From contig JADEXJ010000046.1 in the NCBI GenBank assembly GCA_015207195.1, positions 1 to 40,423 on the forward strand: 40,423 nucleotides of DNA, in the 5' to 3' direction. The notes below the pieces were generated by a model, which ran no database searches, was not told where the DNA came from, and worked only from the letters and a program-made list of their open reading frames with translations. Both the position numbers and the translations under genes were made by a program. Shown piece after piece: positions 11,610-28,214 of this stretch. Each line of letters starts with the position of its first letter. Position 1 is the stretch's first letter. This stretch comes from Pleurocapsales cyanobacterium LEGE 10410. Lineage in GTDB: Bacteria > Cyanobacteriota > Cyanobacteriia > Cyanobacteriales > Xenococcaceae.

Positions 11610-11990
11610 ATGACTCAGTTGCCTACAATGACTAAATCTTCAGCTACTCCCTATAAAAATGCCGTTTTAGACGATCTCGAACTACAAACGGCTCTACAAA
11701 ACATCAATCCTGAATTTGGTGATTTTGTCACTCGCGTTGCTGGCGAAGCTTGGGGGCTACCATTAATCGAGCAAAAAACTAAGGCTTTGATTGTAATTGC
11801 GGTTGATGTAGTCAATCAAAATTTATTAGGTCCTGGTACTCCTTTTGCTGCTCATGTAGATATGGCAATCAAACAAGGGGTAACTCGCGCTGAAATCGAA
11901 GAATTACTCCTATTTTTGTGCGTTTACGCCGGATTTAACAAGGCTGCTGCTAGCTTTGGTGCTTTGAACGAAATTTTAGGTCAATCATAA
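11610..11990 (+). CDS. carboxymuconolactone decarboxylase-like (CMD) protein
   Basis: A 126-residue protein with the all-helical AhpD/CMD fold: TKALIVIAVDVVNQ, then FAAHVDMAIKQGVTRAEIEELL and FLCVYAGFNKAAASFGALNEIL. The family includes gamma-carboxymuconolactone decarboxylase and AhpD-like redox proteins. A CxxC redox pair is absent, so the decarboxylase/isomerase-like branch fits better. The first 30 residues are a poorly conserved extension. It starts at ATG 11610 and is 24 bases before the EthD gene. The N-terminal 95 residues of the giant protein at 13606 are a second copy. A CMD gene also lies at the front of the Synechocystis icfG cluster (from memory). Substrate unknown. Confidence 0.85.
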   Translation: MTQLPTMTKSSATPYKNAVLDDLELQTALQNINPEFGDFVTRVAGEAWGLPLIEQKTKALIVIAVDVVNQNLLGPGTPFAAHVDMAIKQGVTRAEIEELLLFLCVYAGFNKAAASFGALNEILGQS

Positions 11991-12014: not shown

Positions 12015-13562
12015 GTGACCATCTTAACTACAACCAGAAAGACTGATTATGCCATACGCGATCGCCAGGGTAGATTAGCTTTTTACGTCTTGCTCTGGAA
12101 ACGCAAAGGTATTGCTCGCGAACTGTTTGATGACTATTGGCGGGACGTTCATGGCCCAGTATGCGCTCGTTTGCCAGGACAGCACCAGTATTGGCAGTTT
12201 CATCTCGATCGCAATGAAGGGGGAATCTGGCCCGCTATTCCTGGTATTGAATATATCTGTCCCGATGAAGACCAGTTCAATGGTATTGCCGAATTGACTT
12301 TTACTAGCGAAGCCGAACGAAATGTTTGGTTTGAATCTGCTGCCATTTTAATGGATGACGAACACAACATCTTTAGTAAAGCGATCGGCTACAATACCAA
12401 CCTTGGTAACTCTGTAACTTATGTGGATGGTATTCCTAGTGGCGAACCTAATGGCAATCTGGGTCTGCTAAAGTTCCATATCATGGTCAGAAAATCAGCC
12501 ACGGCTAGCGTTTCGGCTTTTCGTCAATATCTAACCGAAAGTTATGCTCCTGCGATCGCCCAAAGTGAATCCGTACTCAAACTGCGTTTGCACCTATTTG
12601 AAGAAGTAGACAACTCTCGTCCCGATGCAGCGGGAGTGACCCATACCGAACCACCAGAACAACAATATCAGGCTGCGGTGGAAATTGCTTTTGCCAATCC
12701 TTTGGAGATGGAGAAATTTTTTACTTCCTCTGAATATGCGATCGCTACTCAAGATTTAGCCCAATACGTTGACTGGTTTTTACCTTTCCCCGAACGGACT
12801 GCCTACACCTTTGTTTATGACGGCAACATGACTCTGGCTGGTCAGCGTAGCTCTACTGTTGCCGAATTAATTGCCAATATTGGCGCGACTAATCAACTTA
12901 AGGAGGATGTAACTACTCTCATGCTGCAACAACAACTAATCCAGTCTAACGGCAATAAAGCTAGTAATGGCAGATCGCAAACTGCTCCTACTCCAGTTAA
13001 AAAACGTACTAATTTCTATCAAGATTTAGCAGCCGATTATTCTCGACCTGGATTGGTCACTGCTTATGTGGCAAAGAAACTAATCGAAGATGGCGAGAAG
13101 TTTGCAGCGATGAAAGAACCTACCATCCCAGAAATTAGCCCTCGTTATACCCTCGAACAAATCGAACAAGAAAACAAGGATTGGTGGCCCACTCATTGCG
13201 AAGCTTTGAGACAGGGACGAGGGGATATTTTGACCGATGAATACCGCAACGATCTAGTTTATTTATGTCAAGATGGCCCCTATTACGGTTTAGACCAGCA
13301 AAAAGAGCGAGAAAAGCACTGGTGGGCGTTAATTGCTCAACCTGGAGTAACTATGTGCTGGCCGATCGTTATGTTTCATGGTGAGGTGACTTACTTTGAA
13401 TGGAAATGCGTAGATGACGAAACCAACGAAACCCTGGCAAAAGGTAATGTCACCTGGGTGCGTCGGGGTCACAGAGGCGGGTGTCATCTCAAAACCGAAC
13501 AACTCACCTTCTACCGCGATGTCTATGCTCCAGGTGGCTTGCTGAGTTTAATTACAACCTAG
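12015..13562 (+). CDS. tandem EthD-domain protein with NTF2-like C-terminus
   Basis: A 515-residue soluble protein. Residues about 15-130 form an EthD-type ferredoxin-like domain (FYVLLWKRKG, YWRDVHGPVCARLPG, HQYWQFHLD), and residues about 150-270 a second, weaker one (LLKFHIMVRK, FRQYLTESYAPAIAQ). After a Gln/Asn-rich linker (about 300-340), residues about 370-510 look like an NTF2/SnoaL-type fold (FHGEVTYFEWKC, NVTWVRRGHRGG, FYRDVYAPGG). EthD and SnoaL folds recur in polyketide and aromatic metabolism as small cyclases, dimeric barrels or monooxygenases. Translation starts at GTG 12015 with AGGAGA at 11999-12004. The EthD pair is repeated, highly similar, inside the next gene. Reaction unknown. 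Confidence 0.8.
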   Translation: MTILTTTRKTDYAIRDRQGRLAFYVLLWKRKGIARELFDDYWRDVHGPVCARLPGQHQYWQFHLDRNEGGIWPAIPGIEYICPDEDQFNGIAELTFTSEAERNVWFESAAILMDDEHNIFSKAIGYNTNLGNSVTYVDGIPSGEPNGNLGLLKFHIMVRKSATASVSAFRQYLTESYAPAIAQSESVLKLRLHLFEEVDNSRPDAAGVTHTEPPEQQYQAAVEIAFANPLEMEKFFTSSEYAIATQDLAQYVDWFLPFPERTAYTFVYDGNMTLAGQRSSTVAELIANIGATNQLKEDVTTLMLQQQLIQSNGNKASNGRSQTAPTPVKKRTNFYQDLAADYSRPGLVTAYVAKKLIEDGEKFAAMKEPTIPEISPRYTLEQIEQENKDWWPTHCEALRQGRGDILTDEYRNDLVYLCQDGPYYGLDQQKEREKHWWALIAQPGVTMCWPIVMFHGEVTYFEWKCVDDETNETLAKGNVTWVRRGHRGGCHLKTEQLTFYRDVYAPGGLLSLITT

Positions 13563-13593
13563 AAAGTAGATAGGGAGACGGGGAGTAACAAAT

Positions 13594-13614
13594 AACCAAT
13601 GACCAATGACCAAT
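13594..13614 (+). repeat. heptamer repeat overlapping a start codon
   Basis: Three consecutive heptamers AACCAAT, GACCAAT, GACCAAT (an STRR-type repeat) span the end of the intergenic gap and the first codons of the giant gene. They create two ATGs seven bases apart and in different frames: 13599 (stops after five codons) and 13606 (the true frame). No Shine-Dalgarno sequence is close by. Confidence 0.6.
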
Positions 13615-16600
13615 AATAGGTTTGATGATTTTTTGGCTAGGGTGGCTAGTCAATACAAGCTGCCATTAATCGACCCCAAGACAAAGGCTTTGATTGCGAT
13701 CGCTGTCGATCTGGTCAACGGCATTAATCAAAGTGCCAGTAATAGTTTTGCCAGCACTATACATAAGGCTCGATCGCAGGGAATTACCGATCGGGAAATC
13801 GAAGAACTGTTGTTATTGCTTTGCGTATATGGAGGATTCAATAAAGTCGCTGGCTGCTTCGGAACGCTAAACGAGATTTTAAGTGGTAATGGACAAATGA
13901 TATCTGCAATCAAACAAGAAGATTATGCCATACGCGATCGCCAGGGGAAACTAGCTTTTTACGTGCTGTTGTGGAAACGTAAAAGTATCGATCGCGAATT
14001 ATTCTACAACTACTGGAAAAACGTTCACGGCCCTCTCTGCGCCCACTTGCCAGGACAACATCAATACTGGCAATTTCACTTAGATCGTCACGAAGGTGGT
14101 ATTTGGCCGATGGTGCAGAGCATAGATAACACCTGTGCTGAAGAAGATCGCTTCGATGGCATTGCCGAATTAACTTTTGCTACAGAAGCAGATTTTCAGG
14201 CATATATCCAAGGGTTTGGCATCCTGATGGCTGACGAACATAACCTATTCAGTAAAGCGATCGCCTACAACACGAGTTTGGGCAATTCCCAAACTTATAT
14301 CGATCGCATTCCTACAGGGGAACCAAACGGAGAACTGGGTTTAGCTAAATTCCACGTCATGGTGCAGAAATCTGATGCCGTGAAAGAAGAGGCTTTTCGC
14401 CAATATATGACAGATACTTTTGCCCCTGCTGTGGTGCAGAGCGATTCTGTGATTAAATTCCGACTGCATTTACTAGAAGCAGTAGACAATTCACGCCCTA
14501 GTGACGATGGAGTATGTCGTTCTGAACCCCTAGATAAGCAATATCAAGCTGCTTTGGAAATTGCCTTTGCTAGTCCTTTGGAGATGGAACAGTTTTTTGC
14601 TTCTACTGAATATACTGTTGCTACCCAAGACTTAGCTCAGTATGTTAAAGGGTTTTTCCCTTTTCCCGAACACAGTACCTATACCTTTGTCTACGACGGC
14701 AAAATGACTTTGGCAGGTAAATGTAGTTCCCAAGTTGCCGATCTAATTTTACAAGCAGGGGCGACTAATCAACTTAAAGAGGATGTGGTTGCTTTGATGA
14801 ACGGTACAGAATTAAAACCTCAATCTAGTAATGAAAGTAAGTCGGGATTAGGTCATTATCTCCAAGGAGTTCAACACTTTGGCGTAACCGTCGATGACAT
14901 GGCGCAGGCGATGGAATTTTACATTGAAGTGTTGGGGGGCAAACTGGTCGTCAGTGAAGACGAATTGGTAGGGGATAAGGCACAAAATACCCTGTTTCAA
15001 CAAGAAGAGTTAGAGGCGATCGCTGCTGGAATCGATCCAGACAAGGCCGATATTCCTCATCTCAGGAGTGGTCAAGAAGATGCTTTAGATGTCAGGTTTA
15101 TTTCTTTTGGTAATGTGGTGGTGGAACTACTTCAGCTCAGAAAAGCGGGAAAGCCCAGCCCTCATAAGGGTTCGGTTAGTAGTCGTCCTTCGCATATTGG
15201 TGAGGTTAATGCGATGCACCTTTCTTTCAATGTGAAAGAAGGGATCGATCTCAACCTTTTTGCCCAAATGTTAGAGTCAGAATGCCAGCGTCGAGGCATG
15301 ACCAATGTCGCTTTTAACCGCATCATTCGGGTTAATTCTGAAACAGAGAGAAAAGCGATCGCTCGTAAATACAATTCCTTCAAGTTCTGGAATGAGCCAG
15401 AAGACGAAGAACCAATTGACTGGAGTGCAGATCCGATGGAAGGCTGGTCTTTATTCTATTGTAAAGGACCAAATGGGGAACAATTAGAATTCAACCAAGC
15501 TACCCGTGGTGTTAAAGAAAAGTTTCGCCAAGGAGTTCAAGATTACAACCAGGCAAACGACACGGCTTTTATCTTTCCAGAAGCTGAAGTTACTTCAGAA
15601 ACCAGAGAAAAACTGTATTTTACCTTTAGCTCTCCTGTCAACGCCTCCATAGCAACTGTTTGGTCAATAGTAAAAGACAAAATAGAAAATACGTCTCGCT
15701 ATAACCCCGAAGCGCAAAACGCAGAGATTTTAGCCAGGTATGACGACGGAGTGCTGCGTCAAATGAACGTTTTAGGCATGAAGGTCAAAGAAAGAATTCT
15801 GATTGACGATCGCACTAAAACAATTACCCATACCCTACTAGATAATCCTTGGTTTACTGGCAAGATAGTCAACCAAATTATCTCAGGTCAAAACCCTCAA
15901 GACCCTATAGTTATCGATTATATCTTCGATTGGCTGCCGACCAACACAGAGGGCAAACAGATGGCTGCCAAAATTTTTCCCAATCTACAACAAGCAGTTC
16001 GTAATGCTGTACTTAGTGCCAAAGAAGTTGCCGAACAGCAAAGCCAATCTTTACTCACCTCATTAACCTCAACCTATAGGAGTAAATCAATGTTAGAACC
16101 ATTACCAGGAAACAATGCCGATCTAGTTAAGCGTCTCTTTTCCAGAGGCGAAGCCTTTGACTCGGCAGGATTTGTGACCTTTTTTACCGATAATCCTGTA
16201 TATCAATTTGGTAACTTTGATGTCTGCTTGGATAAACAGGCGATTAAACAATCAGCGGATAACTTCTTTAGTCAAATTAAGGCGGTTTATCACGAAATCA
16301 AAATGATGCAGGAAGTGGGAGATGTGGTGTTTGTGGAAATGGATGTCCATTATTGGCGCAAAGATGGCTCGATGATATCTCTTCCCTGTTGTGATATCTT
16401 CCGCGTTGAAGGGGATAAATTCAGCGAACTAAGAATCTTTATGGACGTTAACCCCGTCTTCGATCCCAGTATTCCCGTACCCAAATCCGCATCAGTGTTG
16501 ACAGCCAGCCAAGGACAAACCCTGATTCCTCCTGGCACGATGAAAAGACACTTTGCCGAACATCCCGAAGGCAAACAACGAGTCGCTGATGGTTACGGAC

Positions 16601-17064
16601 CCAAATGGGCGATCGCAGGGCCTCAATGGGAGATTGCTAGCGATACTCCAGGTTCGTCAGAACAATTAACTGCCGTCGGAGAATTGGCTCAGGCGATCGT
16701 GGCTCAAAATTGGGCAAAAGTTAAAACTTTCCTTACCGATGATATCTTCTACAAAGTCGGTTCGACAGAACCCCGCTATGGCAGACAAGAGGTCGTAGAT
16801 TTCTTTGCTGATACCTTTAGAACTACGGCAGTTTTCACGGGTCATAAGGTGAGAAAGATTTGGCAAGAACCAGATATTATCACCATTGAAATGGATGCTT
16901 ACTATAAGTTGGTTTCTAGTGGTAGACAGGTAACTATTTCTTGCTGCGATATCTATCGTATGAGAGGTAACAAGGTTAGCGAGTGGCGCGTCTATGCCGA
17001 TATGTCCCCCTGGCAAGAATCAACTAACGGTGCGGTATCTAAGCAAACTGTCACGGCGGGTTAA
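13606..17064 (+). CDS. seven-domain fusion: CMD-EthD-EthD-VOC-SRPBCC-SnoaL-SnoaL
   Basis: A 1152-residue soluble multi-enzyme-like protein. Order: CMD (1-95, EEIELL-type helices then VYGGFNKVAG); EthD (105-225, YWKNVHGPLCAHLPG); second EthD (245-365); VOC/glyoxalase (415-650), with plausible metal ligands His424 (QHFGVTVDD), His538 (MHLSF) and Glu628 (EQLEFN); an SRPBCC/AtaL-like domain (668-815, FSSPVNASIATVWSIV, VKERILID); and two SnoaL/NTF2-like domains (835-955 and 1020-1145, RLFSRGEAF, DIFRVEGDKFSELRIF, DIYRMRGNKVSEWRVY). Each family occurs in aromatic or polyketide chemistry, but I cannot name the reaction. The CMD-EthD part duplicates the two preceding genes, and the SnoaL pair duplicates the next gene. 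An internal ribosome site and ATG lie at residue 829. Confidence 0.85.
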   Translation: MTNNRFDDFLARVASQYKLPLIDPKTKALIAIAVDLVNGINQSASNSFASTIHKARSQGITDREIEELLLLLCVYGGFNKVAGCFGTLNEILSGNGQMISAIKQEDYAIRDRQGKLAFYVLLWKRKSIDRELFYNYWKNVHGPLCAHLPGQHQYWQFHLDRHEGGIWPMVQSIDNTCAEEDRFDGIAELTFATEADFQAYIQGFGILMADEHNLFSKAIAYNTSLGNSQTYIDRIPTGEPNGELGLAKFHVMVQKSDAVKEEAFRQYMTDTFAPAVVQSDSVIKFRLHLLEAVDNSRPSDDGVCRSEPLDKQYQAALEIAFASPLEMEQFFASTEYTVATQDLAQYVKGFFPFPEHSTYTFVYDGKMTLAGKCSSQVADLILQAGATNQLKEDVVALMNGTELKPQSSNESKSGLGHYLQGVQHFGVTVDDMAQAMEFYIEVLGGKLVVSEDELVGDKAQNTLFQQEELEAIAAGIDPDKADIPHLRSGQEDALDVRFISFGNVVVELLQLRKAGKPSPHKGSVSSRPSHIGEVNAMHLSFNVKEGIDLNLFAQMLESECQRRGMTNVAFNRIIRVNSETERKAIARKYNSFKFWNEPEDEEPIDWSADPMEGWSLFYCKGPNGEQLEFNQATRGVKEKFRQGVQDYNQANDTAFIFPEAEVTSETREKLYFTFSSPVNASIATVWSIVKDKIENTSRYNPEAQNAEILARYDDGVLRQMNVLGMKVKERILIDDRTKTITHTLLDNPWFTGKIVNQIISGQNPQDPIVIDYIFDWLPTNTEGKQMAAKIFPNLQQAVRNAVLSAKEVAEQQSQSLLTSLTSTYRSKSMLEPLPGNNADLVKRLFSRGEAFDSAGFVTFFTDNPVYQFGNFDVCLDKQAIKQSADNFFSQIKAVYHEIKMMQEVGDVVFVEMDVHYWRKDGSMISLPCCDIFRVEGDKFSELRIFMDVNPVFDPSIPVPKSASVLTASQGQTLIPPGTMKRHFAEHPEGKQRVADGYGPKWAIAGPQWEIASDTPGSSEQLTAVGELAQAIVAQNWAKVKTFLTDDIFYKVGSTEPRYGRQEVVDFFADTFRTTAVFTGHKVRKIWQEPDIITIEMDAYYKLVSSGRQVTISCCDIYRMRGNKVSEWRVYADMSPWQESTNGAVSKQTVTAG
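16078..16092 (+). promoter_or_regulatory. internal Shine-Dalgarno and ATG at the SnoaL junction
   Basis: AGGAG at 16078-16082, a 7-base spacer and an in-frame ATG at 16090-16092 lie exactly at the boundary between the SRPBCC and tandem-SnoaL domains (Met829). Translation from here would give a separate 324-residue tandem-SnoaL protein ending at 17064. This is the spacing of a normal bacterial start, and looks like the retained start of a formerly separate gene. Confidence 0.55.
16525..16586 (+). repeat. 62-bp block identical to 17944-18005
   Basis: The DNA encoding the linker between the two SnoaL domains (IPPGTMKRHFAEHPEGKQRV) is identical over 62 bases to 17944-18005 in the next gene, including all third positions. 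The flanking SnoaL DNA is clearly similar but has many synonymous changes. Confidence 0.8.
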
Positions 17065-17252: not shown

Positions 17253-17265
17253 GAGGTAAATGATG
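17253..17265 (+). promoter_or_regulatory. ribosome site that picks the Nif11-SnoaL start
   Basis: GAGG at 17253-17256 precedes two adjacent ATGs at 17260 and 17263. The spacing is 3 bases to the first and 6 to the second, so ATG 17263 is the better start. Confidence 0.5.
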
Positions 17266-18447
17266 TCCAATAACGTCTTAAGTCTGCTAGAGGCTGCTTT
17301 AGAGAACCCTTCTTTGCAAAAACAATTACATACAGCTACGAATCCCGATCGCTTTGTGAATATTGCAGCCGAAAATGGCTATTCTCTAAGCTCGGATGAA
17401 TTAGCCCAAACTCTCGGTCAATTTCACGTGGTTTTTGGTCAGGTAGTTGACTCGATGCTAGAGTCTATTGCACCCAATGCAGATATGAATGGCAATGATC
17501 GCCAGCCCAAAACCGAGAAAATCTCAGGCACAAATGTAGACTTAGTAAAGCGTCTATTTTCTAGGGGTGAAGCTTTCGATCCCGCAGGGTTTGTAACTTT
17601 CTTTACGGACAATCCCGTATATCAATTTGGTAATTTTGATGTTTGCCTAGATAAACAAGCGATTCAAAAATCGGCAGAAAACTTTTTTAATCAAATCAAT
17701 GCGGTTTACCACGAAATCAAGATGATCTGGGAAGTCGGCGATTTGGTCTTTGTGGAAATGGATGTTACCTACTGGCGCAAAGATAATTCAGAGATTTCTC
17801 TACCCTGTACAGATATTTTCCGCGTTGAGGGGGACAAGTTTAGCGAATTAAGAATTTTCATGGATGTCAATCCTGTTTTTGACCCCAGTATTGCCGTTCC
17901 TCCCTCGGCATCGGTACTTACAGCCAGTGCGGGTAAAACTATTATTCCTCCTGGCACGATGAAAAGACACTTTGCCGAACATCCCGAAGGCAAACAACGA
18001 GTCGCCAATGGTTACGCCCCTAAATGGTCGATCGCAGGGCCAGTTTGGGCGATCGCCGAACCAGAGACTAATGCTAAATCTGTCGAACAGTTAAATGCCG
18101 TAGGCGACCTTTCTCAGGCGATTATGGCTGAAGATTGGGCGAAAGTTAAAACTTATCTAACCGACGATATCTTCTATAAAGTTGGTTCGGGAGAACCCCG
18201 CTATGGCAGACAAGAGGTAGTAGATTTCTTTGCCGATACTTTTAAAACTACCGCCGTTTTCTTCGGTCATAAAGTGCGAAAAATCTGGCAGGAACAAGAC
18301 ATTATTTCCCTAGAAATGGACGCTTATTACAAGCTAGTTCCCAGTGGCAGACAAGTAACTATTTCTTGCTGCGATATCTATCGCATGAGAGGCAACAAGG
18401 TCAGCGAATGGCGCGTATACGCAGATATGTCTCCCTGGAGTAATTGA
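17263..18447 (+). CDS. Nif11-domain protein with tandem SnoaL-like domains
   Basis: A 394-residue protein. The first about 55 residues match the Nif11 family (LLEAALENPSLQKQL, then FVNIAAENGYSLSSDEL). Nif11 is best known as the leader of RiPP precursors and as a small nitrogen-fixation-associated protein. After a linker come two SnoaL/NTF2-like domains (about 90-205 and 270-390; RLFSRGEAF, FRVEGDKFSELRIFMDVNP, DIYRMRGNKVSEWRVYADMSPW). These are nearly identical to the last 320 residues of the preceding giant protein, including a 62-bp identical DNA block. A Nif11 domain fused to a folded enzyme-like part suggests docking or targeting rather than a cleaved leader. Start chosen from the ribosome site. 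Substrate unknown. Confidence 0.8.
   Translation: MSNNVLSLLEAALENPSLQKQLHTATNPDRFVNIAAENGYSLSSDELAQTLGQFHVVFGQVVDSMLESIAPNADMNGNDRQPKTEKISGTNVDLVKRLFSRGEAFDPAGFVTFFTDNPVYQFGNFDVCLDKQAIQKSAENFFNQINAVYHEIKMIWEVGDLVFVEMDVTYWRKDNSEISLPCTDIFRVEGDKFSELRIFMDVNPVFDPSIAVPPSASVLTASAGKTIIPPGTMKRHFAEHPEGKQRVANGYAPKWSIAGPVWAIAEPETNAKSVEQLNAVGDLSQAIMAEDWAKVKTYLTDDIFYKVGSGEPRYGRQEVVDFFADTFKTTAVFFGHKVRKIWQEQDIISLEMDAYYKLVPSGRQVTISCCDIYRMRGNKVSEWRVYADMSPWSN
17944..18005 (+). repeat. second copy of the 62-bp block
   Basis: This block is identical to 16525-16586 in the giant fusion gene. It lies in the linker between the SnoaL domains of the Nif11-SnoaL gene. Confidence 0.8.
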
Positions 18448-18598: not shown

Positions 18599-19219
18599 AT
18601 GGCAACAGAATCTAAAGGAAAAATTGGCGTACTGATAGAAGAACATTTCGATGGTACGGAATATCGTCGCTTTAATGAATACTTCCCCCAACAAGGTTAT
18701 GAAGTAGAATACATTTCCCATCTTTGGGGTAATGAATCATTGCGTTTTGGTTCAAATCCCGAAAATGACAAAATTGAATATCACGTTACAGTCACTACCG
18801 AAGTAGCCGATATTAACCCTGCCGACTATAAAGGTATTATTGCGATCGGTGCATATGCCACGGATCGTCTGAGATATCAGGTTAATGTTAGACCAGGTCA
18901 GAAAAATAATGCCCCCGCAGTAGTATTTCTGGGTCAAGCAGCAGCAATAGAAAACCTCAAACTAGGCACTATCTGTCATAGCCTTTGGCTCTTTTGTGCT
19001 GATTCCGATTTACTCAAAGACAAAAAAGTGACCTGCGCCCACAATCTTATTTGCGATGTGGAAAATGCAGGGGCAGAAATCATTTACGACGGCGATGTCA
19101 CCGCAGATTTAGTTATCGACGAAAACCTTGTTACAGGAAAACACCCAGGGGTAGTCGATTTATTTATGGAAGCTTTTGTTAACGAAATCGAAAAAGCTAA
19201 CCAACTTACTTTTGCTTAG
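18599..19219 (+). CDS. DJ-1/PfpI superfamily protein
   Basis: A 206-residue protein with the DJ-1/PfpI fold: KIGVLIEEHFDGTEY at the start with acidic residues Glu14/Glu15, GIIAIGAYATDRLR in the middle, and the nucleophile elbow GTICHSLWLF with Cys126. The usual CHG is CHS here. Family members are amidases, glyoxalases, deglycase-like enzymes or redox chaperones; the loop replacing the Gly prevents a closer call. Downstream sequence ITCAHNLICDVENAGAEI-type strands match the family C-terminus. It starts at ATG 18599 with weak AAGGA upstream. In the icfG-type locus it lies between the SnoaL genes and the AGE-family gene, suggesting a common small-molecule pathway. Confidence 0.82.
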   Translation: MATESKGKIGVLIEEHFDGTEYRRFNEYFPQQGYEVEYISHLWGNESLRFGSNPENDKIEYHVTVTTEVADINPADYKGIIAIGAYATDRLRYQVNVRPGQKNNAPAVVFLGQAAAIENLKLGTICHSLWLFCADSDLLKDKKVTCAHNLICDVENAGAEIIYDGDVTADLVIDENLVTGKHPGVVDLFMEAFVNEIEKANQLTFA

Positions 19220-19385: not shown

Positions 19386-21206
19386 ATGGCAACTACTGTA
19401 AATTTTCCTTTTTCCGATTCCATTGCAGGTTACGTTACCAGCTACGATGCCGAAAGCGATATTTTTGGTTTAAAAACCTCTGATGGTAGAGAATTTAAAG
19501 TGCAATTGAGTCCTATGGCTTATGCCAAAGTGATTCAAAATTTTGATGAAGGCTATCCCGATGCGACGGGGAATATGAAATCAATGCTCGTCCCAGGGCA
19601 GTATTTGTCTACCTACGGCGTATTTTATCCCGACAGCGATCGCTTTGATGCTAAACAGGTTATTTTTCCTGGGCGTAAAAAGACTGAGTATGTCTTTGAG
19701 AAACAAGACTGGTGGGTTCATCAAATCAATTCCCTGGGCAATTTTTATCTCAAATCTCAATTTGGTGACGGGGAATTTAACTATCGCCACTATCGTACTA
19801 GCCTCGCTCTTTCGGGTCAGAAATCTCAGGTTAGCTTTCGTCAAGAAACTGATACCATTTCCCGCTTGGTGTATGGTTTCGCCACAGCTTTTATGATGAC
19901 TGGCAACGATAGTTTTCTTAAAGCTGCCGAACGTGGTACGGAATACCTACGGGAACATATGCGGTTTGAAGATACCGACGAAGGTATAGTTTACTGGTAT
20001 CACGGTATTGACGTACGGGGAGATAAGGAAGATAAAATCTTTGCCTCCGAGTTTGGCGATGATTATTATGCTATTCCTGCATACGAACAAATTTACGCCC
20101 TGGCAGGACCGATTCAAACCTATCGCTGTACGGGCGATCCGCGGATTATGGCTGATACGGAAAAAACTATTAAACTATTTAACGATTTCTTCTTAGATCA
20201 AAGCGAACAGGGTGGTTACTTCTCTCACCTCGAACCCATGACCCTCGATCCTCGCAGTGAGTCTTTGGGACAAAACCAAGGCAAAAAGAACTGGAACTCT
20301 GTGGGCGACCACGCTCCAGCCTATCTAATCAATCTCTGGTTGGCGACTGGCAAACAAGAATACGCCGATATGTTGGAGTATACCTTCGATACCATCGCCA
20401 AATACTTCCCCGATTACGAAAACAGCCCCTTTGTTCAAGAAAGATTTAACGAAGATTGGTCTCATGATACGACCTGGGGTTGGCAGCAAAACCGCGCTGT
20501 CGTAGGACATAACCTCAAGATTGCCTGGAATCTAATGCGGATGCAAAGCTTGAAAGCTAAAGATGAATACGTCGATTTGGCCACGAAAATCGCCGATCTG
20601 ATGCCCGATGTGGGTAGCGATCGCCAGCGTGGAGGTTGGTATGATGTAGTGGAGCGTCTCTTGGGCGAAGGAGAAACCGTTCACCGCTTTGTCTGGCACG
20701 ATCGCAAAGCCTGGTGGCAACAAGAACAGGCAATCTTGGCTTATCTAATCTTGGCTGGGGTTTTAGAGCGATCGGAATATCATCGTTTTGCCCGCGAAGC
20801 ATCGGCTTTTTACAATTCTAGCTTCCCCGATATCGAAGATGGTGGCGTTTATTTCAACGTCTTAGCCAACGGTATCCCCTTCCTATCTGGCGGTAACGAA
20901 CGAGGTAAAGGCTCTCACTCTATGAGTGGTTATCATTCCTTCGAGTTGTGCTACCTTGCAGCAGTATATACCAACCTGCTAATTACCAAACAGCCGATGG
21001 ACTTTTACTTTAAACCGATGCCTGGTGGTTTCCCCGACGACGTTTTAAGAGTCGCCCCCGATATTCTGCCCCCTGGTAGCATCAAGATTGGCAAGTGCGA
21101 AATTGATGGTGAACCTTACAGTCATTTTGATGCTGATGCCTTAATTGTCAAATTACCTAGAACGAAAGAACGGGTAAAAGTCAAAGTACAAATTGTCCCC
21201 AAATAG
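19386..21206 (+). CDS. AGE-family (N-acylglucosamine 2-epimerase-like) protein
   Basis: A 606-residue protein. Residues 1-140 form an extra N-terminal part, partly beta (GYVTSYDAESDIFGLKTSDG), followed by an (alpha/alpha)6 barrel typical of AGE epimerases/isomerases. Landmarks are VGDHAPAYL, a GHNLKIAWNL motif (family form GHxIEWAW), KAWWQQEQAI (family form KxWWxQxEA) and YHSFELCYL near the end. These supply the conserved His and Arg/Trp residues of the active site. The family interconverts sugars or their derivatives, and some members are cellobiose epimerases. The protein is about 200 residues longer than standard AGE enzymes. An AGE-like gene (slr1855, from memory) occupies the same place in the Synechocystis icfG cluster. 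Sugar substrate unknown. Confidence 0.85.
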   Translation: MATTVNFPFSDSIAGYVTSYDAESDIFGLKTSDGREFKVQLSPMAYAKVIQNFDEGYPDATGNMKSMLVPGQYLSTYGVFYPDSDRFDAKQVIFPGRKKTEYVFEKQDWWVHQINSLGNFYLKSQFGDGEFNYRHYRTSLALSGQKSQVSFRQETDTISRLVYGFATAFMMTGNDSFLKAAERGTEYLREHMRFEDTDEGIVYWYHGIDVRGDKEDKIFASEFGDDYYAIPAYEQIYALAGPIQTYRCTGDPRIMADTEKTIKLFNDFFLDQSEQGGYFSHLEPMTLDPRSESLGQNQGKKNWNSVGDHAPAYLINLWLATGKQEYADMLEYTFDTIAKYFPDYENSPFVQERFNEDWSHDTTWGWQQNRAVVGHNLKIAWNLMRMQSLKAKDEYVDLATKIADLMPDVGSDRQRGGWYDVVERLLGEGETVHRFVWHDRKAWWQQEQAILAYLILAGVLERSEYHRFAREASAFYNSSFPDIEDGGVYFNVLANGIPFLSGGNERGKGSHSMSGYHSFELCYLAAVYTNLLITKQPMDFYFKPMPGGFPDDVLRVAPDILPPGSIKIGKCEIDGEPYSHFDADALIVKLPRTKERVKVKVQIVPK

Positions 21207-21616: not shown

Positions 21617-21961
21617 ATGGAAATCAACCTTAGAAAACTCCAAGAAATTCAGGTAGTAGAGTTAATAGGAGATGTAGATGCTAGCACCGCACCAGAAGTG
21701 CAGCAAGAAATATTACCCCTAGCGCAGCCCAATAGTAAACTTTTGCTGGATATGAGCCAAGTGCCTTATATGTCTAGTGCGGGCTTACGGGTATTGCTAT
21801 CTTTATATCGTCAAGCTACGGCACAAGATGGAAAGCTAGTTTTAGTGGGACTTTCTGAAGATTTACAAGACACTATGTCCGTCACGGGATTTCTCGACTT
21901 TTTCGCTACTGGTGACACCCTCGAAGCTGGATTAGCTCAACTTAAGGAGACAGTAGCATGA
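21617..21961 (+). CDS. STAS-domain anti-sigma factor antagonist
   Basis: A 114-residue single STAS domain of the SpoIIAA/RsbV kind. ELIGDVDASTAPEVQQEI forms the first strand-helix, and YMSSAGLRVLL carries the regulatory serine (Ser54 by alignment). In partner switching the unphosphorylated form binds an RsbW-type kinase; phosphorylation releases it and a PP2C phosphatase resets it. Both enzymes are encoded at 24489-26358. The gene overlaps glgX by 4 bases (ATGA), so the two are translationally coupled. Its position matches slr1856 of the Synechocystis icfG cluster, from memory. Confidence 0.9.
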   Translation: MEINLRKLQEIQVVELIGDVDASTAPEVQQEILPLAQPNSKLLLDMSQVPYMSSAGLRVLLSLYRQATAQDGKLVLVGLSEDLQDTMSVTGFLDFFATGDTLEAGLAQLKETVA

Positions 21962-24087
21962 CCATCACCGAACGTATCGATATACATCCCACCCACAACT
22001 ACGAGAATTATAAATTGCGTCGGGGTAAACCTTTTCCCTTTGGTGCGACTCTAGTACCAGGAGGTGTTAACTTTTCGATTTTTTCCAGTCACGCCACCTC
22101 CTGCACCCTAGTGCTATTTAAAAAACACGCGGAACAACCAATGGTGGAAATTCCTTTTCCCGAAGAGTTTCGCATCGGTAATGTGTACTGTATGGTGGTC
22201 TTCGATCTTGATTACGAGAACTTAGAATACGGCTATCGTATGGATGGACCCAATGACTTTGCTGCTGGTCAATGGTTTGATAAAACTAAAATCCTGAGCG
22301 ATCCCTATGGCAAAATTATGGGTGGTCGAGATGTTTGGGGGGTTCTGCCCGATTGGAACGATATCTATCAACATCGATCGCGCATTGTCTTTGATGATTT
22401 TGATTGGGAAGATGACCGCCCCTTAGAAATCGAACCCGAAGACCAGATTATCTATGAAATGCACGTCCGCAGCTTTACCCGCGATGCTTCTTCTGGAATT
22501 AAGGAAAAACATCAGGGAACTTTTGCAGGTATTCGGGACAAGATTCCTTATCTCAAAGAATTGGGAGTTAATGCGATCGAGTTGATGCCGATTTTTGAAT
22601 TTGATGAATTTGAAAATAGCCGTATTAACCCCGAAACAGGGGAAATGCTACTCAACTACTGGGGTTATAGTACTGTAGACTTTTTTGCTCCCAAGGCAGG
22701 TTATGCTGCTACGGGCAAATTGGGGATGCAGGCAGATGAGTTAAAGGCTTTGGTTAAAGAATTACACAAAAACGGCATTGAAATTATCTTAGATGTGGTC
22801 TTTAACCACACAGCAGAAGGTAACGAACAAGGACCGACAATTTCTTTTCGGGGTATTGATAACAAAACCTACTATATGCTGACCCCTGAAGGGTATTATT
22901 TCAACTTTAGTGGCTGTGGCAATACCCTTAACTGTAATAATCCCATCGTTCGCAATCTAGTTCTCGACTGTTTACGCTATTGGGCAGAAGAATATCACAT
23001 CGATGGTTTTCGCTTTGATTTGGCATCAATTTTAGGACGAGATCCCTGGGGTTTTCCCTTGGCTAACCCACCCCTGTTAGAAAGTCTAGCTTTCGATCCC
23101 ATTCTTGCTAAATGCAAACTAATTGCCGAAGCTTGGGATGCTGGCGGTTTATATCAAGTTGGTTCTTTTCCTGCTTATGGACGCTGGGCAGAATGGAATG
23201 GTAAATATCGCGATACCCTGCGGAAGTTTATCAAAGGAGATGCCACCGTTGGCGAAATGGCGCAAAGATTGCAAGGATCGCCCGATCTCTATGCCTGGGA
23301 AGGACGCGCCCCAGCTACTTCGATTAATTTTATTACTGCCCACGATGGTTTTACCTTAATGGATTTGGTTTCTTATAACGGGAAACACAACCAAGCCAAC
23401 GGCGAAAATAACAATGATGGTGATAATAGTAACGAAAGTTGGAACTGTGGTTGGGAAGGTGTAACCGACGATCCAGCAATTAATGCTTTGCGACGGCGAC
23501 AAATCAAAAATGCTGTAGCTATGTTAATGGTAAGTCAGGGAGTACCAATGATTCTTATGGGAGATGAACTGGGACGCACCAAACACGGTAATAATAATAC
23601 TTACTGCCACGATAACCAACTAAACTGGCTCGATTGGCAACTATTAGAAACCAACGTAGACTTATTTCGATTTTTTAAGCACTGTATTGCTTTCCGCAAA
23701 GCTCACCCTGTATTGAGAAATCGCCAGCACTTTCAAAATCAAGATTATGTGGGTAGCGGTTATGCAGACATTACTTGGCATGGTACAAAAGCCTGGAATG
23801 CAGATTGGTCGCCCGATAGTCGCTCTCTAGCTTTTATGCTCTGTGGCAAACACGCCCGTCAAGGAACTTTTACCGATAACTACATTTATGTCGCTATGAA
23901 CGTCCACTGGCAAGCAAATTGGTTTGAATTGCCTGGTTTACCAACAGGGATGAATTGGCACGTCTTCGCTAATACTGGCGTACCTTCACCCGCAGATATT
24001 TGGCAACCAGGAACAGAACCTCAACTAGAAAATCAAACGGGAATGTTATTGGGCGATCGCTCGGTCGCAATTTTAGTTGGTAAGTAG
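21958..24087 (+). CDS. glgX: glycogen debranching enzyme GlgX (isoamylase type)
   Basis: A 709-residue GH13 debranching enzyme that hydrolyses alpha-1,6 branches in glycogen in the cytosol. Residues about 20-130 are the CBM48-like N-terminal domain (FPFGATLVPGGVNFSIFS). The catalytic barrel has ILDVVFNHTAEG, the nucleophile Asp354 (DGFRFDLAS), the acid/base Glu391 (IAEAWDAGG) and His462-Asp463 (TAHDGFTLMDL). Length is normal. It starts at ATG 21958 inside the stop of the STAS gene. Its place between two STAS genes suggests that glycogen breakdown is expressed or controlled together with the partner switch. Confidence 0.95.
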   Translation: MTITERIDIHPTHNYENYKLRRGKPFPFGATLVPGGVNFSIFSSHATSCTLVLFKKHAEQPMVEIPFPEEFRIGNVYCMVVFDLDYENLEYGYRMDGPNDFAAGQWFDKTKILSDPYGKIMGGRDVWGVLPDWNDIYQHRSRIVFDDFDWEDDRPLEIEPEDQIIYEMHVRSFTRDASSGIKEKHQGTFAGIRDKIPYLKELGVNAIELMPIFEFDEFENSRINPETGEMLLNYWGYSTVDFFAPKAGYAATGKLGMQADELKALVKELHKNGIEIILDVVFNHTAEGNEQGPTISFRGIDNKTYYMLTPEGYYFNFSGCGNTLNCNNPIVRNLVLDCLRYWAEEYHIDGFRFDLASILGRDPWGFPLANPPLLESLAFDPILAKCKLIAEAWDAGGLYQVGSFPAYGRWAEWNGKYRDTLRKFIKGDATVGEMAQRLQGSPDLYAWEGRAPATSINFITAHDGFTLMDLVSYNGKHNQANGENNNDGDNSNESWNCGWEGVTDDPAINALRRRQIKNAVAMLMVSQGVPMILMGDELGRTKHGNNNTYCHDNQLNWLDWQLLETNVDLFRFFKHCIAFRKAHPVLRNRQHFQNQDYVGSGYADITWHGTKAWNADWSPDSRSLAFMLCGKHARQGTFTDNYIYVAMNVHWQANWFELPGLPTGMNWHVFANTGVPSPADIWQPGTEPQLENQTGMLLGDRSVAILVGK

Positions 24088-24139: not shown

Positions 24140-24469
24140 ATGGCTTTTACAGCAATTTCAGAAATCAACGATGATATCGCCAAAATTACTTTATCTGGAG
24201 AATTAGATGCCAGCACTGCTCCAATTTTTAAAGAAGAAGTCGAATCAATAGCAGGACAAGATATTAGCAAACTGGTCTTATTGACCGAAGACTTGGAATA
24301 TATGTCTAGTGCAGGTTTGCGAGTACTAATTTTCTCCAAGCAAAAAATGGGCGCTGATGTGCAACTTTATGTAGTTAGCCCCCAAGAAATGGTCTTGGAT
24401 ACCCTAGAAAAAACTGGCTTCCACCACAGTGTAACTATCGTAGACGAATACGCAGCAGTTGCCAGGTAA
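24140..24469 (+). CDS. second STAS-domain anti-sigma factor antagonist
   Basis: A 109-residue single STAS domain. ITLSGELDASTAPIFKEE and EYMSSAGLRVLIFSK closely match the first STAS protein; Ser57 is the likely phosphorylation site. AAGGAGA at 24127-24133 provides a good ribosome site for ATG 24140. It lies directly before the PP2C gene, as slr1859 does before icfG in Synechocystis (from memory). Two STAS partners for one kinase-phosphatase pair could give separate outputs. Confidence 0.92.
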   Translation: MAFTAISEINDDIAKITLSGELDASTAPIFKEEVESIAGQDISKLVLLTEDLEYMSSAGLRVLIFSKQKMGADVQLYVVSPQEMVLDTLEKTGFHHSVTIVDEYAAVAR

Positions 24470-24488
24470 ATAAAACAATTTGATTAAA

Positions 24489-25898
24489 ATGATGAGCGAT
24501 CGCAATTTATCTCCCGAACTGTTAGAGCAAGAATTAGCGTCTTTGCGTCAAGAAGTTGCCACGCTCAAGACTGAGAAAGCAGCTTTTGAAGTTCAACAGA
24601 AATTATTAGAAAATTTGGTCGATCTCGAACACTCTTCCGCTCAAGGAGAAGTGCTGCAAGCTTCTCTACAAGCCACATTAGATTTGGTTACGGCTTTAAC
24701 CGATGCCGAAAAGGGTAGTCTATTTTTACTCGAAGCTTCGGGTAAGGTAGTTGATGCGATCCTTTCTCGTGCTGAAGTTACTCCCAAACAGCGGGCGAAA
24801 CTAATTGGCAACGTCTTAGATCGAGGATTAGCTGGCTGGGTGTGCGATCGCCGTGAAATCGGTTTAATTAGCGATACCGAACATGATACTCGGTGGTTAA
24901 CTTTGCCCGATCAACCTTATACGGTGCGTTCTGCTTTAGCCGTTCCCATTCAAAGAGGCGAGCAATTATTGGGCATTCTGACTCTATTACATCCCGAACC
25001 AGATCACTTTAGTCCTGAATTAGCTCGACAAATAGATCTAACCACAAATCGATTAGGTTTAGTCTTAGAAAATGCGCGACTTTACTTTCAATTAAGACAG
25101 TATTCGGCAGCATTAGATAACGAACTAGAAACAGGTAGACAAATCCAAATCGACTTTTTACCCGATCGTGTCTATCAGCCTCCTAATTGGGAACTAGCAG
25201 CTTGTTTTCATCCTGCCAAACAAGTGGCTGGAGATTTTTATGATACTTTTCCCTTGGGTAACTATGTGGGATTGGCGATCGCCGATGTCTGCGACAAAGG
25301 AGTAGGGGCAGCATTTTTTATGGCGTTGATGCGTAGTCTAATTCGGGTGTTTTCGGGACAAACTCAACTAGATGGCTTATCTATTGTGACGGGAGAAGAT
25401 CGTCAACTATTACCCAAACTGTCTTCTCAAACTCAAGCTCTCCAAGCAGTAGAACTGACTAACCAGTATGTGGCTCAAAACCATTGGAAACTGAGTATGT
25501 TTGCCACCATGTTTTTTGGCGTGTTAGACCCAGCTACGGGCTTATTAACTTATATCAATGGCGGACACGAGCCTCTATTTTTGGTTAATAATTCTGGCAT
25601 CAAACAGACTCTCAACCCTACAGGACCCGCAGTAGGCATGATGCCTAATATGAAATTTGGGATCGCACAAGTTCAGTTTGAATCGGGAGATATTTTGCTG
25701 GGCTATACCGATGGCGTAACCGAAGGCAAAAACACCGACGGAGAATTATTTACTCCCCAACGTTTGCGATCGCTCCTCGAACATCCAGCTAAATCTGCTG
25801 GCGAACTACTAACGCGAATTGAAACCAAATTGTTTGACCACATCGACCGAGCAATTCAGTTTGATGACATCACCATGTTAGCTGTGCAAAGACTTTAG
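24489..25898 (+). CDS. icfG: GAF-PP2C serine phosphatase, IcfG/RsbU type
   Basis: A protein of about 469 residues with an N-terminal coiled coil (about 8-45), a GAF sensor domain (about 55-195, VTALTDAEKGSLFLL and RSALAVPIQRGEQLLGIL) and a SpoIIE/RsbU-type PP2C domain to the end. PP2C metal-site motifs are visible: VAGDFYDTF, GLAIADVCDKGVGAAFFM, YINGGHEPLFL, GYTDGVTEG and DDITMLAV. It should dephosphorylate the STAS partners in response to a GAF ligand. In Synechocystis the orthologue in the same gene order is IcfG, needed to coordinate glucose and inorganic carbon use. ATG 24489 or 24492 is a better start than TTG 24480; no strong ribosome site is present. Confidence 0.9.
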   Translation: MMSDRNLSPELLEQELASLRQEVATLKTEKAAFEVQQKLLENLVDLEHSSAQGEVLQASLQATLDLVTALTDAEKGSLFLLEASGKVVDAILSRAEVTPKQRAKLIGNVLDRGLAGWVCDRREIGLISDTEHDTRWLTLPDQPYTVRSALAVPIQRGEQLLGILTLLHPEPDHFSPELARQIDLTTNRLGLVLENARLYFQLRQYSAALDNELETGRQIQIDFLPDRVYQPPNWELAACFHPAKQVAGDFYDTFPLGNYVGLAIADVCDKGVGAAFFMALMRSLIRVFSGQTQLDGLSIVTGEDRQLLPKLSSQTQALQAVELTNQYVAQNHWKLSMFATMFFGVLDPATGLLTYINGGHEPLFLVNNSGIKQTLNPTGPAVGMMPNMKFGIAQVQFESGDILLGYTDGVTEGKNTDGELFTPQRLRSLLEHPAKSAGELLTRIETKLFDHIDRAIQFDDITMLAVQRL

Positions 25899-25926: not shown

Positions 25927-26358
25927 ATGCGAGTAATAGAAACTTTAACTGTTCCTGGAACTGTAGATTCCTTAAGCAAGATCGCCGAATATGTTAAACA
26001 AGTGGCAACTATTGCCGAATTAAACCACAAAGCAACTTACAAACTACGTCTGGCTGTAGATGAGATTGCCACCAATATTATTACTCACGGTTATGCAGAA
26101 GCGGGACTAACGGGAGAAATATATCTACGTGCCGATCTGGACAATTCTCGTCTCACTTTAGCGATCGAAGATACGGGGGCAATCTATAACCCTGATGAAA
26201 AAGCTGTCCTCCAACATGAATATTTAAGTCAAACGTTAGAAACAAGAGAGGCAGGTGGTTTGGGCGTTCATCTTGTTTTAGCCAGCGTTGATGAATTCCG
26301 TTACGAACGAGCAGGCGATCGCAACCGCAACATTTTTATCATGCACCGAAATCAATGA
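25927..26358 (+). CDS. RsbW-like anti-sigma/serine kinase (HATPase_c)
   Basis: A 143-residue GHKL ATPase of the RsbW/SpoIIAB type. The N box is LRLAVDEIATNIITHGY, followed by the G1 motif IEDTGAIYNP and the GGLGVHLV glycine box. Such kinases phosphorylate STAS antagonists and bind a sigma factor or other target. No sigma factor gene is in the window, so the target lies elsewhere or is not a sigma factor. It starts 28 bases after icfG and overlaps the amylase gene by 4 bases (ATGA). It corresponds in order to slr1861 of Synechocystis, from memory. Confidence 0.92.
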   Translation: MRVIETLTVPGTVDSLSKIAEYVKQVATIAELNHKATYKLRLAVDEIATNIITHGYAEAGLTGEIYLRADLDNSRLTLAIEDTGAIYNPDEKAVLQHEYLSQTLETREAGGLGVHLVLASVDEFRYERAGDRNRNIFIMHRNQ

Positions 26359-28214
26359 ACAATTATCGATCGACAATCATTCCCCACATCTCAGAAAAGT
26401 CTAGTCAAGAAACTAGTTCGGACTTTGAATTCTTATTTGCCAGGGCGATCGAGTTTCGCCAAGAGACAATTTATTTTATTATCGTCGATCGCTTTAATGA
26501 TGGCGACTCTGACAATAATCCAGGCTGCAATCCCCAGCTTTACGATCCAACTCGTCAACAGTGGGGTAAGTATTGGGGAGGTGATTTACAGGGAATTATC
26601 GATAAATTAGATTATCTCAAAGGTTTGGGTGTAACTGCACTGTGGATTTCTCCTTTATTCGAGCAGGTAGAAGAACTACAGTTCGATCGCGCTGCGATGC
26701 ACGGATATTGGACAAAGGATTTTAAACGGATTAACCCCCGCTTCTTGGCAAAAGGTGAGGACAATTCTCTATCTAAATGTACGGTCTTAAATCGACTAAT
26801 TACAGCAGCCCACGATCGCGGACTAAAGTTGATTTTAGATATTGTTTGTAATCATAGCAGTCCTGATGTCAATGGTCATAAAGGAGAACTTTACGACGAT
26901 GGAAAACTGATTGCCGATTTTTATAACGATACGAATAACTGGTATCATCACAACCCCGAAATTACGGACTGGGAAGATGAATGGCAGCTTTTATATGGTG
27001 AGATGGCAGGACTAGCTACTTTTAATGAGAGCAATCTTGACTTCCGTAACTATATGAAATCGGCAATTAAGCAGTGGTTAGATCGGGGTATTGATGCCTT
27101 GCGAATCGATACGGTAAAACATATGCCGATCTGGTTTTGGCAAGAATTGATTACCGATATTCAAACCCATAAACCTTCTACCTTCATGTTTGGGGAATGG
27201 GGTTTTAGTAAACCTTGGGAGCAAAAATCGGTAGACTTTGCCAATTTTTCGGGGATGTCGATTTTAGACTTTGGCTTGTGTGAAGCAATTCGCAGTGCTT
27301 TAGCCAAAGAAGATGCTAGGGGATTTTATCTAATTAAAAAAGTCTTCGATCTCGATCGCCTCTACTATCGGGCAACGGAATTGATTACCTTTATTGATAA
27401 TCACGATATGCCCCGCTTCCAAAGTTTAAACGCCGATCCAGATAATTTACGAATGGCGATCGCCTTGTTGATGACTTCCCGTGGCATTCCCTGTATTTAT
27501 TATGGAACGGAGCAATATTTACATAATGATACCAATGGCGGTGAAGATCCCTATAATCGCCCCATGATGGATAATTGGGACACTAATAGTCCGCTTTATC
27601 AGGATATACAGCTATTTTCTAAGTTAAGACGACTCAATCCCGCCGTATCTCTAGGCAGTCAGGTAGAAAAATATATTACTACCGATATCTATTGTTATAC
27701 TCGCAGCTATCGAGATTCTCGCTGTTTTGTGGCAATCAATCGCGGTAAGAGTACCACCATTAATGTAAATACTAACTTAGAAGATGGTGAATATCGTTGC
27801 TTACTAACACAACGTACTTTTCAGGTTCGCAACGGCAAATTATCGGGATTAGAATTAAGCTCTCAAGAAGTGATTATCCTCAGCTATATTGGCGATCGCG
27901 TTAAGGGTCAGACGATCGCTAGAGTCCAGTTAAATGGCATTAGCACTCAACCAGGAGAAACAGTAGTAGTTACAGGAGATTGTCCCGAATTAGGTAATTG
28001 GGATATCAGTAAAGCCTACGCTTTAGAATACATCAACTCTAATACCTGGTTTGGCGAAATTCCCTTTACAACTAGTTCGGGTAAAGCAATTTCTTATAAA
28101 TATGCTGTGCAGCGCGAAAATGGCTTGCCAATCTATGAAAACGTGATCTCCCATCGTTGGATTTTAGCCGAGGATGGCATTGTAAAATGGCAAAACATTT
28201 GGGGACAAAGCTAA
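26355..28214 (+). CDS. CGTase-like GH13 amylase with CBM20 starch-binding domain
   Basis: A 619-residue alpha-amylase-family enzyme. The (beta/alpha)8 part has DRFNDGDSDNN and YWGGDLQGI as in cyclodextrin glucanotransferases, LDIVCNHSSP, the nucleophile Asp252 (ALRIDTVKHMP), the acid/base Glu281 (MFGEWGF) and Asp351 (IDNHDMPRF). Residues about 515-615 form a CBM20 starch-binding domain (PGETVVVTGDCPELGNWD). It should act on alpha-1,4-glucans; hydrolysis versus transglycosylation is open. No signal peptide is present, unlike most secreted CGTases, so it probably acts on internal glycogen. Its start overlaps the RsbW-like gene by 4 bases, tying it to the partner-switching operon. Confidence 0.9.
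   Translation: MNNYRSTIIPHISEKSSQETSSDFEFLFARAIEFRQETIYFIIVDRFNDGDSDNNPGCNPQLYDPTRQQWGKYWGGDLQGIIDKLDYLKGLGVTALWISPLFEQVEELQFDRAAMHGYWTKDFKRINPRFLAKGEDNSLSKCTVLNRLITAAHDRGLKLILDIVCNHSSPDVNGHKGELYDDGKLIADFYNDTNNWYHHNPEITDWEDEWQLLYGEMAGLATFNESNLDFRNYMKSAIKQWLDRGIDALRIDTVKHMPIWFWQELITDIQTHKPSTFMFGEWGFSKPWEQKSVDFANFSGMSILDFGLCEAIRSALAKEDARGFYLIKKVFDLDRLYYRATELITFIDNHDMPRFQSLNADPDNLRMAIALLMTSRGIPCIYYGTEQYLHNDTNGGEDPYNRPMMDNWDTNSPLYQDIQLFSKLRRLNPAVSLGSQVEKYITTDIYCYTRSYRDSRCFVAINRGKSTTINVNTNLEDGEYRCLLTQRTFQVRNGKLSGLELSSQEVIILSYIGDRVKGQTIARVQLNGISTQPGETVVVTGDCPELGNWDISKAYALEYINSNTWFGEIPFTTSSGKAISYKYAVQRENGLPIYENVISHRWILAEDGIVKWQNIWGQS

Follow-up and report, generated by a model that had tools for sequence, protein, structure and literature searches.

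A single gene of the cyanobacterium Pleurocapsales LEGE 10410 encodes a genuine fusion of seven domains, CMD-EthD-EthD-VOC-SRPBCC-SnoaL-SnoaL, in one chain, probably an accessory metabolic enzyme; the gene belongs to an operon of the icfG type. The gene lies in contig JADEXJ010000046.1, whose positions 1 to 40,423 form the window, that is, the whole stretch of DNA analyzed here. Domain content and order, their conservation, the operon context, and the homology to adjoining genes were each established in this analysis. The gene and its segments (CMD, carboxymuconolactone decarboxylase; a and b denote first and second copies) are as follows.

13606..17064, plus strand: seven-domain fusion, 1,152 amino acids, ATG start (open frame, Pfam, and locus alignment)
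13606..13896, plus strand: CMD, residues 1-97, without about 25 N-terminal residues of most relatives (Pfam profile positions 19-76 of 84; alignment A1)
13897..14310, plus strand: EthDa, residues 98-235, H141 of the FxxYWxxxHxP motif kept, codon 14026-14028 (Pfam, alignment)
14311..14811, plus strand: EthDb, residues 236-402, Phe272 replacing the motif His (second Pfam EthD stretch; alignment)
14848..15597, plus strand: VOC, residues 415-664, with H424 (14875-14877), E507 (15124-15126), H538 (15217-15219), and E628 (15487-15489) (Pfam, alignments, FosB match)
15598..16041, plus strand: AtaL-like SRPBCC, residues 665-812 (Pfam AtaL E 8e-6, relatives, pLDDT)
16102..16461, plus strand: SnoaLa, residues 833-952 (Pfam, locus comparison)
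16666..17025, plus strand: SnoaLb, residues 1021-1140, nearest solved relative limonene epoxide hydrolase (LEH), triad absent (Pfam, PDB search)

Pfam supports this domain list, which had been proposed in a first-pass annotation of the sequence. In the window protein, CMD scored 27.5 bits at residues 21-82 (cut-off 23), the two EthD stretches 56.7 as a whole-protein score (cut-off 22), Glyoxalase/VOC 27.8 (cut-off 20.6; the best stretch, 422-478, is the N-terminal module only), and the two SnoaL_2 stretches 78.4 (cut-off 27). Residues 683-804 covered positions 19-131 of the 143 in the AtaL profile; the 26.1 bits of this match fall slightly below the cut-off of 27. A VOC-less relative in Nostoc NIES-3756 is annotated "AtaL-like protein." The same families recurred when the 20 homologues that make up the rows of alignment A1 were scanned one by one, with matches counted at E values up to 0.01: EthD and SnoaL_2 in 20/20, Glyoxalase in 19/20, CMD in 15/20, and AtaL in 11/20. 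Rows without a match mostly lacked the segment itself (L019 has no VOC; L006, L015, L016, and L019 have no CMD; L009 keeps a CMD remnant). Structure prediction of the segments, a check proposed in the first-pass annotation, gave a divided answer. In the whole-chain AlphaFold model (mean pLDDT, 52), ten-residue blocks were fairly confident in SRPBCC (68-87), SnoaLa (56-83), and SnoaLb (68-91) and poor, mostly below 55, in CMD, EthD, and VOC. SRPBCC was modeled as a strand, a helix, further strands, and a long helix, and the VOC segment modeled alone reached a pLDDT of 38.

The architecture is shared among genomes. A pattern-based scan of the GTDB 220 species genomes yielded 22 loci, and after regions of relatives were added we compared 26 fused proteins (EthD-EthD joined to VOC, counting that of the window), drawn from no more than 25 genomes; one genome, G016, contributed two, including one that a contig end truncates. 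Domain presence was scored by BLAST with the window's own domains. All seven domains in order were present in 11 of the 26, including the window's protein and that of L009, in which just 24 CMD residues matched. The remainder lacked SRPBCC alone (6/26), SRPBCC and SnoaLb (3/26), SnoaLb (2/26, one contig-cut), CMD and SnoaLb (2/26), CMD and SRPBCC (1/26), or all three (1/26), giving total absences of 4/26 for CMD, 11/26 for SRPBCC, and 8/26 for SnoaLb (one of the eight, L064, cut by a contig end). Linear order was unchanged in 26/26. Since the loci were selected by query match, these proportions are not representative of cyanobacteria at large. The G016 copy is 80% identical over its full length, and comparison of the two whole proteins over 1,148 codons gave a dN of 0.125 and a dS of 0.98 (dN/dS of about 0.13). 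A sequencing or assembly error that joined separate genes, the objection foreseen in the first-pass annotation, is thus excluded by the architecture shared in many genomes and by the dN/dS ratio. That annotation also took the fusion to imply substrate channeling through a fixed order of steps, which found no support: CMD, SRPBCC, and SnoaLb are optional across the 26 fused proteins, so the chain holds no obligatory seven-step line.

Distribution of the fusion is patchy. Among 386 cyanobacterial genomes drawn evenly, the window's own included, 28 had any match and 5 had one open frame holding both EthD and VOC; the survey scored at most two candidates per genome, so that separate pieces are undercounted. 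Matches were found in 15 of 60 relatives, again counting the window's genome, and in 3 of 12 other genomes of its genus, just one of them strongly and with a stand-alone VOC. This patchiness may arise because the modules ride on large plasmids. One such plasmid of Nostoc NIES-3756 (L107) carries a VOC-less fusion with icfG-type genes, and one of Gloeothece (L106) carries modules of the fusion kind.

The likeliest catalytic core would be the VOC segment. Its predicted metal site (H424, H538, and E628), already marked in the first-pass annotation, is invariant, and a fourth candidate, E507, is equally so, in 16/16 rows of alignment A2 (fused VOC segments, with three near-duplicate fused rows of A1 omitted) and in 10/10 rows of alignment A4 (3 fused and 7 stand-alone VOC proteins from other cyanobacteria, Phyllobacterium, and Rhizobium; hits H5, H7, H8, and H16 lie outside it). 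When the A2 profile was compared with FosB, the N-terminal module matched, the QHxGxTV start placing H424 onto the FosB His; in the C-terminal piece, which is nonsignificant alone, the GPxGxxxEF end brought E628 onto the Glu of the PDGxxxEF end. When five stand-alone VOC relatives were scanned, the match to the Glyoxalase profile spanned roughly positions 1-92 of 121 in three and was confined to the profile start in two. Because the AlphaFold models are poor, the VOC assignment is drawn from sequence (the Pfam and FosB matches and the stand-alone relatives). In glyoxalase I and methylmalonyl-CoA epimerase, four ligands are spread over both modules; the putative His/Glu/His/Glu set of the fusion, likewise distributed, fits this type rather than an extradiol dioxygenase. 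Unlike these superfamily members and FosB, the fusion's VOC is about 250 amino acids long, carries long inserts, and is part of a larger chain, and no solved relative was significant across both of its modules. Two rhizobial stand-alone relatives (L103 and L104) have about 55 additional N-terminal residues, and L104 matched a TAT signal model weakly, below the cut-off; these two proteins may be exported.

Several other domains look catalytically altered or degenerate from their residues and may not perform their textbook reactions, given that EthDb is without its His, SnoaLb without its triad, and CMD truncated. The motif His of EthDa (H141) is kept in 19/20 rows of A1, and Phe272 occupies the corresponding place in EthDb, as judged by eye, in 20/20. 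Among solved structures SnoaLb is nearest to LEH by sequence (4r9k; E 2.4e-7 in a PDB search). We take the LEH catalytic triad to be R99/D101/D132, positions that agree with the chain numbering in our alignment, yet a pairwise alignment places Met, Ala, and Val there in SnoaLb, and on this ground an epoxide hydrolase was rejected for that domain. A fold search with the whole-chain model also put LEH on top (the aligned region was not reported) and matched Lsd19 (3rga) and MonBI-MonBII; the Lsd19 match over 331 columns was loose (rmsd, 9.9; TMt, 0.42). The fused CMD matches PcaC-type carboxymuconolactone decarboxylases (4g9q, 2q0t, and 2af7) by sequence. A CxxC motif is a feature of AhpD, and an AhpD-type peroxidase was rejected for this domain, no CxxC being visible by eye. 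CMD is about 25 N-terminal residues short in the window and G016 compared with most Nostoc copies. The fusion's start codon lies inside a short tandem repeat of the CCAATGA type (window 13590-13615, by eye), a possible place for the loss of the CMD N terminus.

Fused and separate copies of these domains share sequence in several lineages. Separate CMD, EthD-EthD, and SnoaL-SnoaL copies directly adjoin the window's fusion; its CMD-EthD-EthD half shares 62% identity with the two upstream genes, and its tail shares about 83-84%, at the amino acid level, with the downstream gene. The fused tails fall into more than one group in a SnoaL tree of 34 rows. In three lineages (the window, G016, and L008; L018, L095, and L096; and the Nostoc/Komarekiella strains L001-L004 and L011) they cluster with separate copies from the same lineage, and the tails of L007, L009, L010, and L012 make up a distant cluster that holds no separate copies. 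A single clade of fused tails, a group named after the tree was built, was rejected by an approximately unbiased (AU) test on 26 of the 34 rows (p-AU 5.9e-78; strains L001-L004, L008, L011, L013, L015, L018, L055, L095, L096, and the window). In the tree of EthD pairs, a strain's fused and separate copies fall together with good support in L012 and L014 and with values under the tool's mark in L010 and L018 (98/77 and 88/95); those of the window do not. Identical runs between fused and separate copies reach 512 nucleotides (nt) in L008, 335 nt in the EthD region of L018, and 257 nt in L001. Gene conversion between the copies fits these data best.

All five domain kinds were found as separate genes too, in keeping with the first-pass view of them as normally stand-alone: CMD, EthD-EthD pairs, and VOC occur singly, and SRPBCC and SnoaL occur as adjacent genes. 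One locus (L099) holds a consecutive un-fused set of CMD, EthD-EthD, upC, DJ-1, AGE (N-acylglucosamine 2-epimerase family), STAS, and GlgX, where upC denotes a highly conserved domain described below. An Ignavibacteria metagenome-assembled genome (L022) has DJ-1, upC, EthD-EthD, CMD, GlgX, and AGE. A stand-alone VOC adjoins upC and DJ-1 in L063 and L102, and separate EthD-EthD and VOC genes lie at most 2 kb apart in three small-genome relatives (L090-L092). The window's own genome carries a second, un-fused set scattered over a 50-kb contig (C199).

The fusion sits in an icfG-type carbohydrate/carbon-signaling operon, a kind long associated in cyanobacteria with the control of carbon and glucose; it was matched to that of Synechocystis through published gene descriptions. 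Its neighbors, from CMD through alpha-amylase, are all on its strand.

11610..11990, plus strand: stand-alone CMD protein, homologue of the fused CMD, slr1853-like by annotation (Pfam, homology)
12015..13562, plus strand: EthD-EthD-upC protein (Pfam, homology)
17260..18447, plus strand: Nif11-SnoaLa-SnoaLb protein (Pfam; identity to the fusion tail as given above)
18599..19219, plus strand: DJ-1/PfpI protein with an ICHS stretch, presumably where the nucleophile Cys would be (Pfam)
19386..21206, plus strand: AGE family protein (Pfam)
21617..21961, plus strand: STAS anti-sigma-antagonist, slr1856-like by position (Pfam)
21958..24087, plus strand: GlgX/isoamylase, slr1857-like by position (Pfam)
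24140..24469, plus strand: second STAS protein, slr1859-like by position (domain scans)
24480..25898, plus strand: GAF-SpoIIE phosphatase (IcfG, slr1860-like) (Pfam)
25927..26358, plus strand: HATPase_c_2 anti-sigma kinase, slr1861-like (Pfam)
26355..28214, plus strand: alpha-amylase with CBM20, overlapping the kinase gene end (Pfam)

The consecutive STAS, isoamylase, STAS, SpoIIE phosphatase, and HATPase kinase genes make up the icfG-type row. In Synechocystis PCC 6803, according to the available portions of the sources, slr1852-1862 form an operon with AGE (slr1855), STAS (slr1856), GlgX1, and IcfG (PMC8670252); slr1853 is a CMD (PMC3564720); and slr1861 is an anti-SigC kinase, slr1856 and slr1859 putative antagonists, and slr1857 an isoamylase, the operon being linked to carbon and glucose growth (PMC12329169). 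Thus far the two operons are alike. They differ in that the portions of these operon descriptions available to us mention no EthD, VOC, SRPBCC, or SnoaL fusion; slr1852 would correspond to upC. Among the 26 fused loci, DJ-1 was present in 21, AGE in 20, GlgX in 20 (in 4 as a 47-49% paralogue), STAS in 17, an upC-bearing gene in 24, and the phosphatase and kinase in 6 each, in stretches of unequal length, some contig-cut, that were chosen by query match; a few neighbor matches lay on the other strand. The upC segment is the C-terminal 180 amino acids of the EthD-EthD-upC protein (window 13020-13562). The window's copy is 62-88% identical to those of other cyanobacteria and 67% identical to the Ignavibacteria copy. 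Of the 386 surveyed genomes, 25 have upC, and in 22 of these its open frame is short, which points to a stand-alone protein. Searches of Pfam and NCBIfam (E value threshold, 0.1) and of the PDB (threshold, 1) yielded no upC relatives; two stray Pfam matches, each in 1/16 members, were left unused (C-glycoside deglycosidase beta subunit, E 0.14; Metallophos, 0.19).

Other features of the window were recorded. The Nif11-type leader (17260-17440) N-terminal to SnoaL-SnoaL is an unusual combination that recurs in the SnoaL tree set, where 13 proteins have it, counting the window's. A divergent cupin-CHRD-RTX protein of 956 amino acids lies at 8158-11028 on the minus strand; a cupin-type homologue is near the fusion in 14/26 loci and a CHRD domain in 10/26. 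Genes for a CHASE2-adenylate/guanylate cyclase and a DUF928 protein adjoin each other at 3312-6365 (minus strand), and a CHASE2 gene and a DUF928 gene are likewise adjacent on plasmid L107, upstream of the CMD gene; they possibly belong to the fusion's signaling neighborhood. Between the AGE and STAS genes (21460-21565), an inverted-repeat element rich in CCCCCAAATTTGGGGG, noted by eye, resembles a small mobile or palindromic element. Downstream of the operon (28285-37669) are genes for a CHAT protein, TPS secretion, TPR-CHAT, and an MBL-fold protein matching the Anti-Pycsar Apyc1 model.

To explain the fusion, we propose that the operon's own smaller genes were duplicated and joined, incorporating one gene for VOC and one for SRPBCC, and that gene conversion would keep the product resembling its neighbors. 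The two EthD repeats would pair within the chain as an alpha+beta barrel with a single working site at H141. VOC would act as a metal-dependent isomerase or epimerase, glyoxalase-I-like in its ligands, with SRPBCC and SnoaL supplying binding pockets or acid/base catalysis; CMD is probably structural in the window's lineage. Fusing would fix stoichiometry and bring the sites close. We put this joint chemistry forward tentatively. The substrate may be a small carbonyl or enolizable product of sugar or glycogen breakdown, handled by an accessory isomerase- or lyase-type enzyme; this is a guess, no firmer than the chemistry, made because of the AGE, DJ-1, isoamylase, and amylase neighbors.

Several observations weigh against this explanation. 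Besides the AtaL score just under its cut-off, the VOC and EthD models are too poor to make the intramolecular pairing and the assembled metal site more than inferred. With respect to sequence sharing, the fused SnoaL tails of L013 and L015 do not group with their own separate copies, and the longest identical run is just 62 nt in the window and 35 nt in L055 and L013. Independent re-fusion of separate genes is the alternative source of the sharing, and the long identical runs, each in a single strain, could be assembly errors. Finally, certain un-fused copies have other settings. The rhizobial VOC adjoins a quinol-monooxygenase-type gene in both annotated loci examined (among hits H4-H8, of which H8 carries no annotation and H5 and H7 lie outside), and that of Phyllobacterium also adjoins an SDR gene. 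In Caballeronia, SRPBCC adjoins SnoaL in the fusion's order, the SRPBCC-NTF2-SDR genes neighboring aromatic dioxygenase and gentisate genes, and a Gloeothece CMD/upC/EthD set lies near tryptophan halogenase and HpaB-type hydroxylase genes. These settings favor aromatic or redox chemistry over sugar chemistry.

The last point is shared by the best-surviving rival, an enzyme that would tailor or degrade compounds of the aromatic or polyketide type, with one intermediate channeled through the domains in order. The families themselves (EthD, SnoaL, AtaL, CMD, and VOC) and the linear order fixed in 26/26 also speak for it, as does a 2OG-Fe(II) oxygenase gene in the window, although this lies about 9 kb upstream of the fusion. 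However, no polyketide synthase or ring-cleavage family was found in the 26 window open reading frames (ORFs) scanned, a set that excludes the end-of-window ORF at 38493-40421, and within that scope a polyketide cluster is rejected. Furthermore, the operon is of the icfG/glycogen type, the modules are optional, and EthDb and SnoaLb have lost the residues described above. Of the aromatic/polyketide frame given in the first-pass annotation, then, what held is that some noncyanobacterial relatives stand beside aromatic-degradation genes; the window's own neighborhood is icfG-type instead. We consider this rival unlikely.

Somewhat less probable is a specific form of the favored reading, in which the enzyme would detoxify reactive carbonyls or glycation products from sugar and glycogen breakdown, VOC acting as a glyoxalase partnered by DJ-1. 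The His/Glu/His/Glu set, the nearby DJ-1/PfpI gene, and the sugar epimerase and glucan-degrading neighbors agree with this. Nevertheless, the nearest solved VOC relatives by sequence are FosB, glyoxalase I is much shorter than the fusion's VOC, and the substrate is wholly inferred. We give least credence to a non- or weakly catalytic scaffold or metabolite sensor whose pockets would bind a carbon metabolite and report to the IcfG phosphatase and kinase: co-located STAS, phosphatase, and kinase genes, the degenerate look of several domains, and tolerated module loss would suit it, but the VOC ligands are strictly kept even in stand-alone relatives away from icfG operons, the AGE, GlgX, and amylase neighbors are enzymes, and Pfam found no signaling domain in the fusion chain.

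Both the component families and the operon are known. What appears to be undescribed in the literature searched is the fused family itself, along with the way its modules vary and its sharing of sequence with adjacent genes. That search, which took in few subscription papers, found no description of the fusion. The available part of PMC7261140 has a table that lists a CMD gene and names no EthD or SnoaL, and the accessible portions of the operon literature name no substrate for the CMD, DJ-1, or AGE-type genes. More speculatively, and with the odds against it, the fusion and its neighbors could form an undescribed metabolic branch wired into IcfG partner switching. At its center would be one chain that swaps modules around a VOC isomerase core and acts on a glycogen- or sugar-derived carbonyl, its domains being continually copied between the fused gene and the separate genes adjoining it.

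In sum, the gathering of five small-domain kinds in one protein of an icfG operon suggests that these domains work together. The putative VOC site offers a testable catalytic center, and there is a single protein to purify rather than many. Finally, the sequence that fused copies have in common with separate ones provides a clear natural case for studying the concerted evolution of protein domains.

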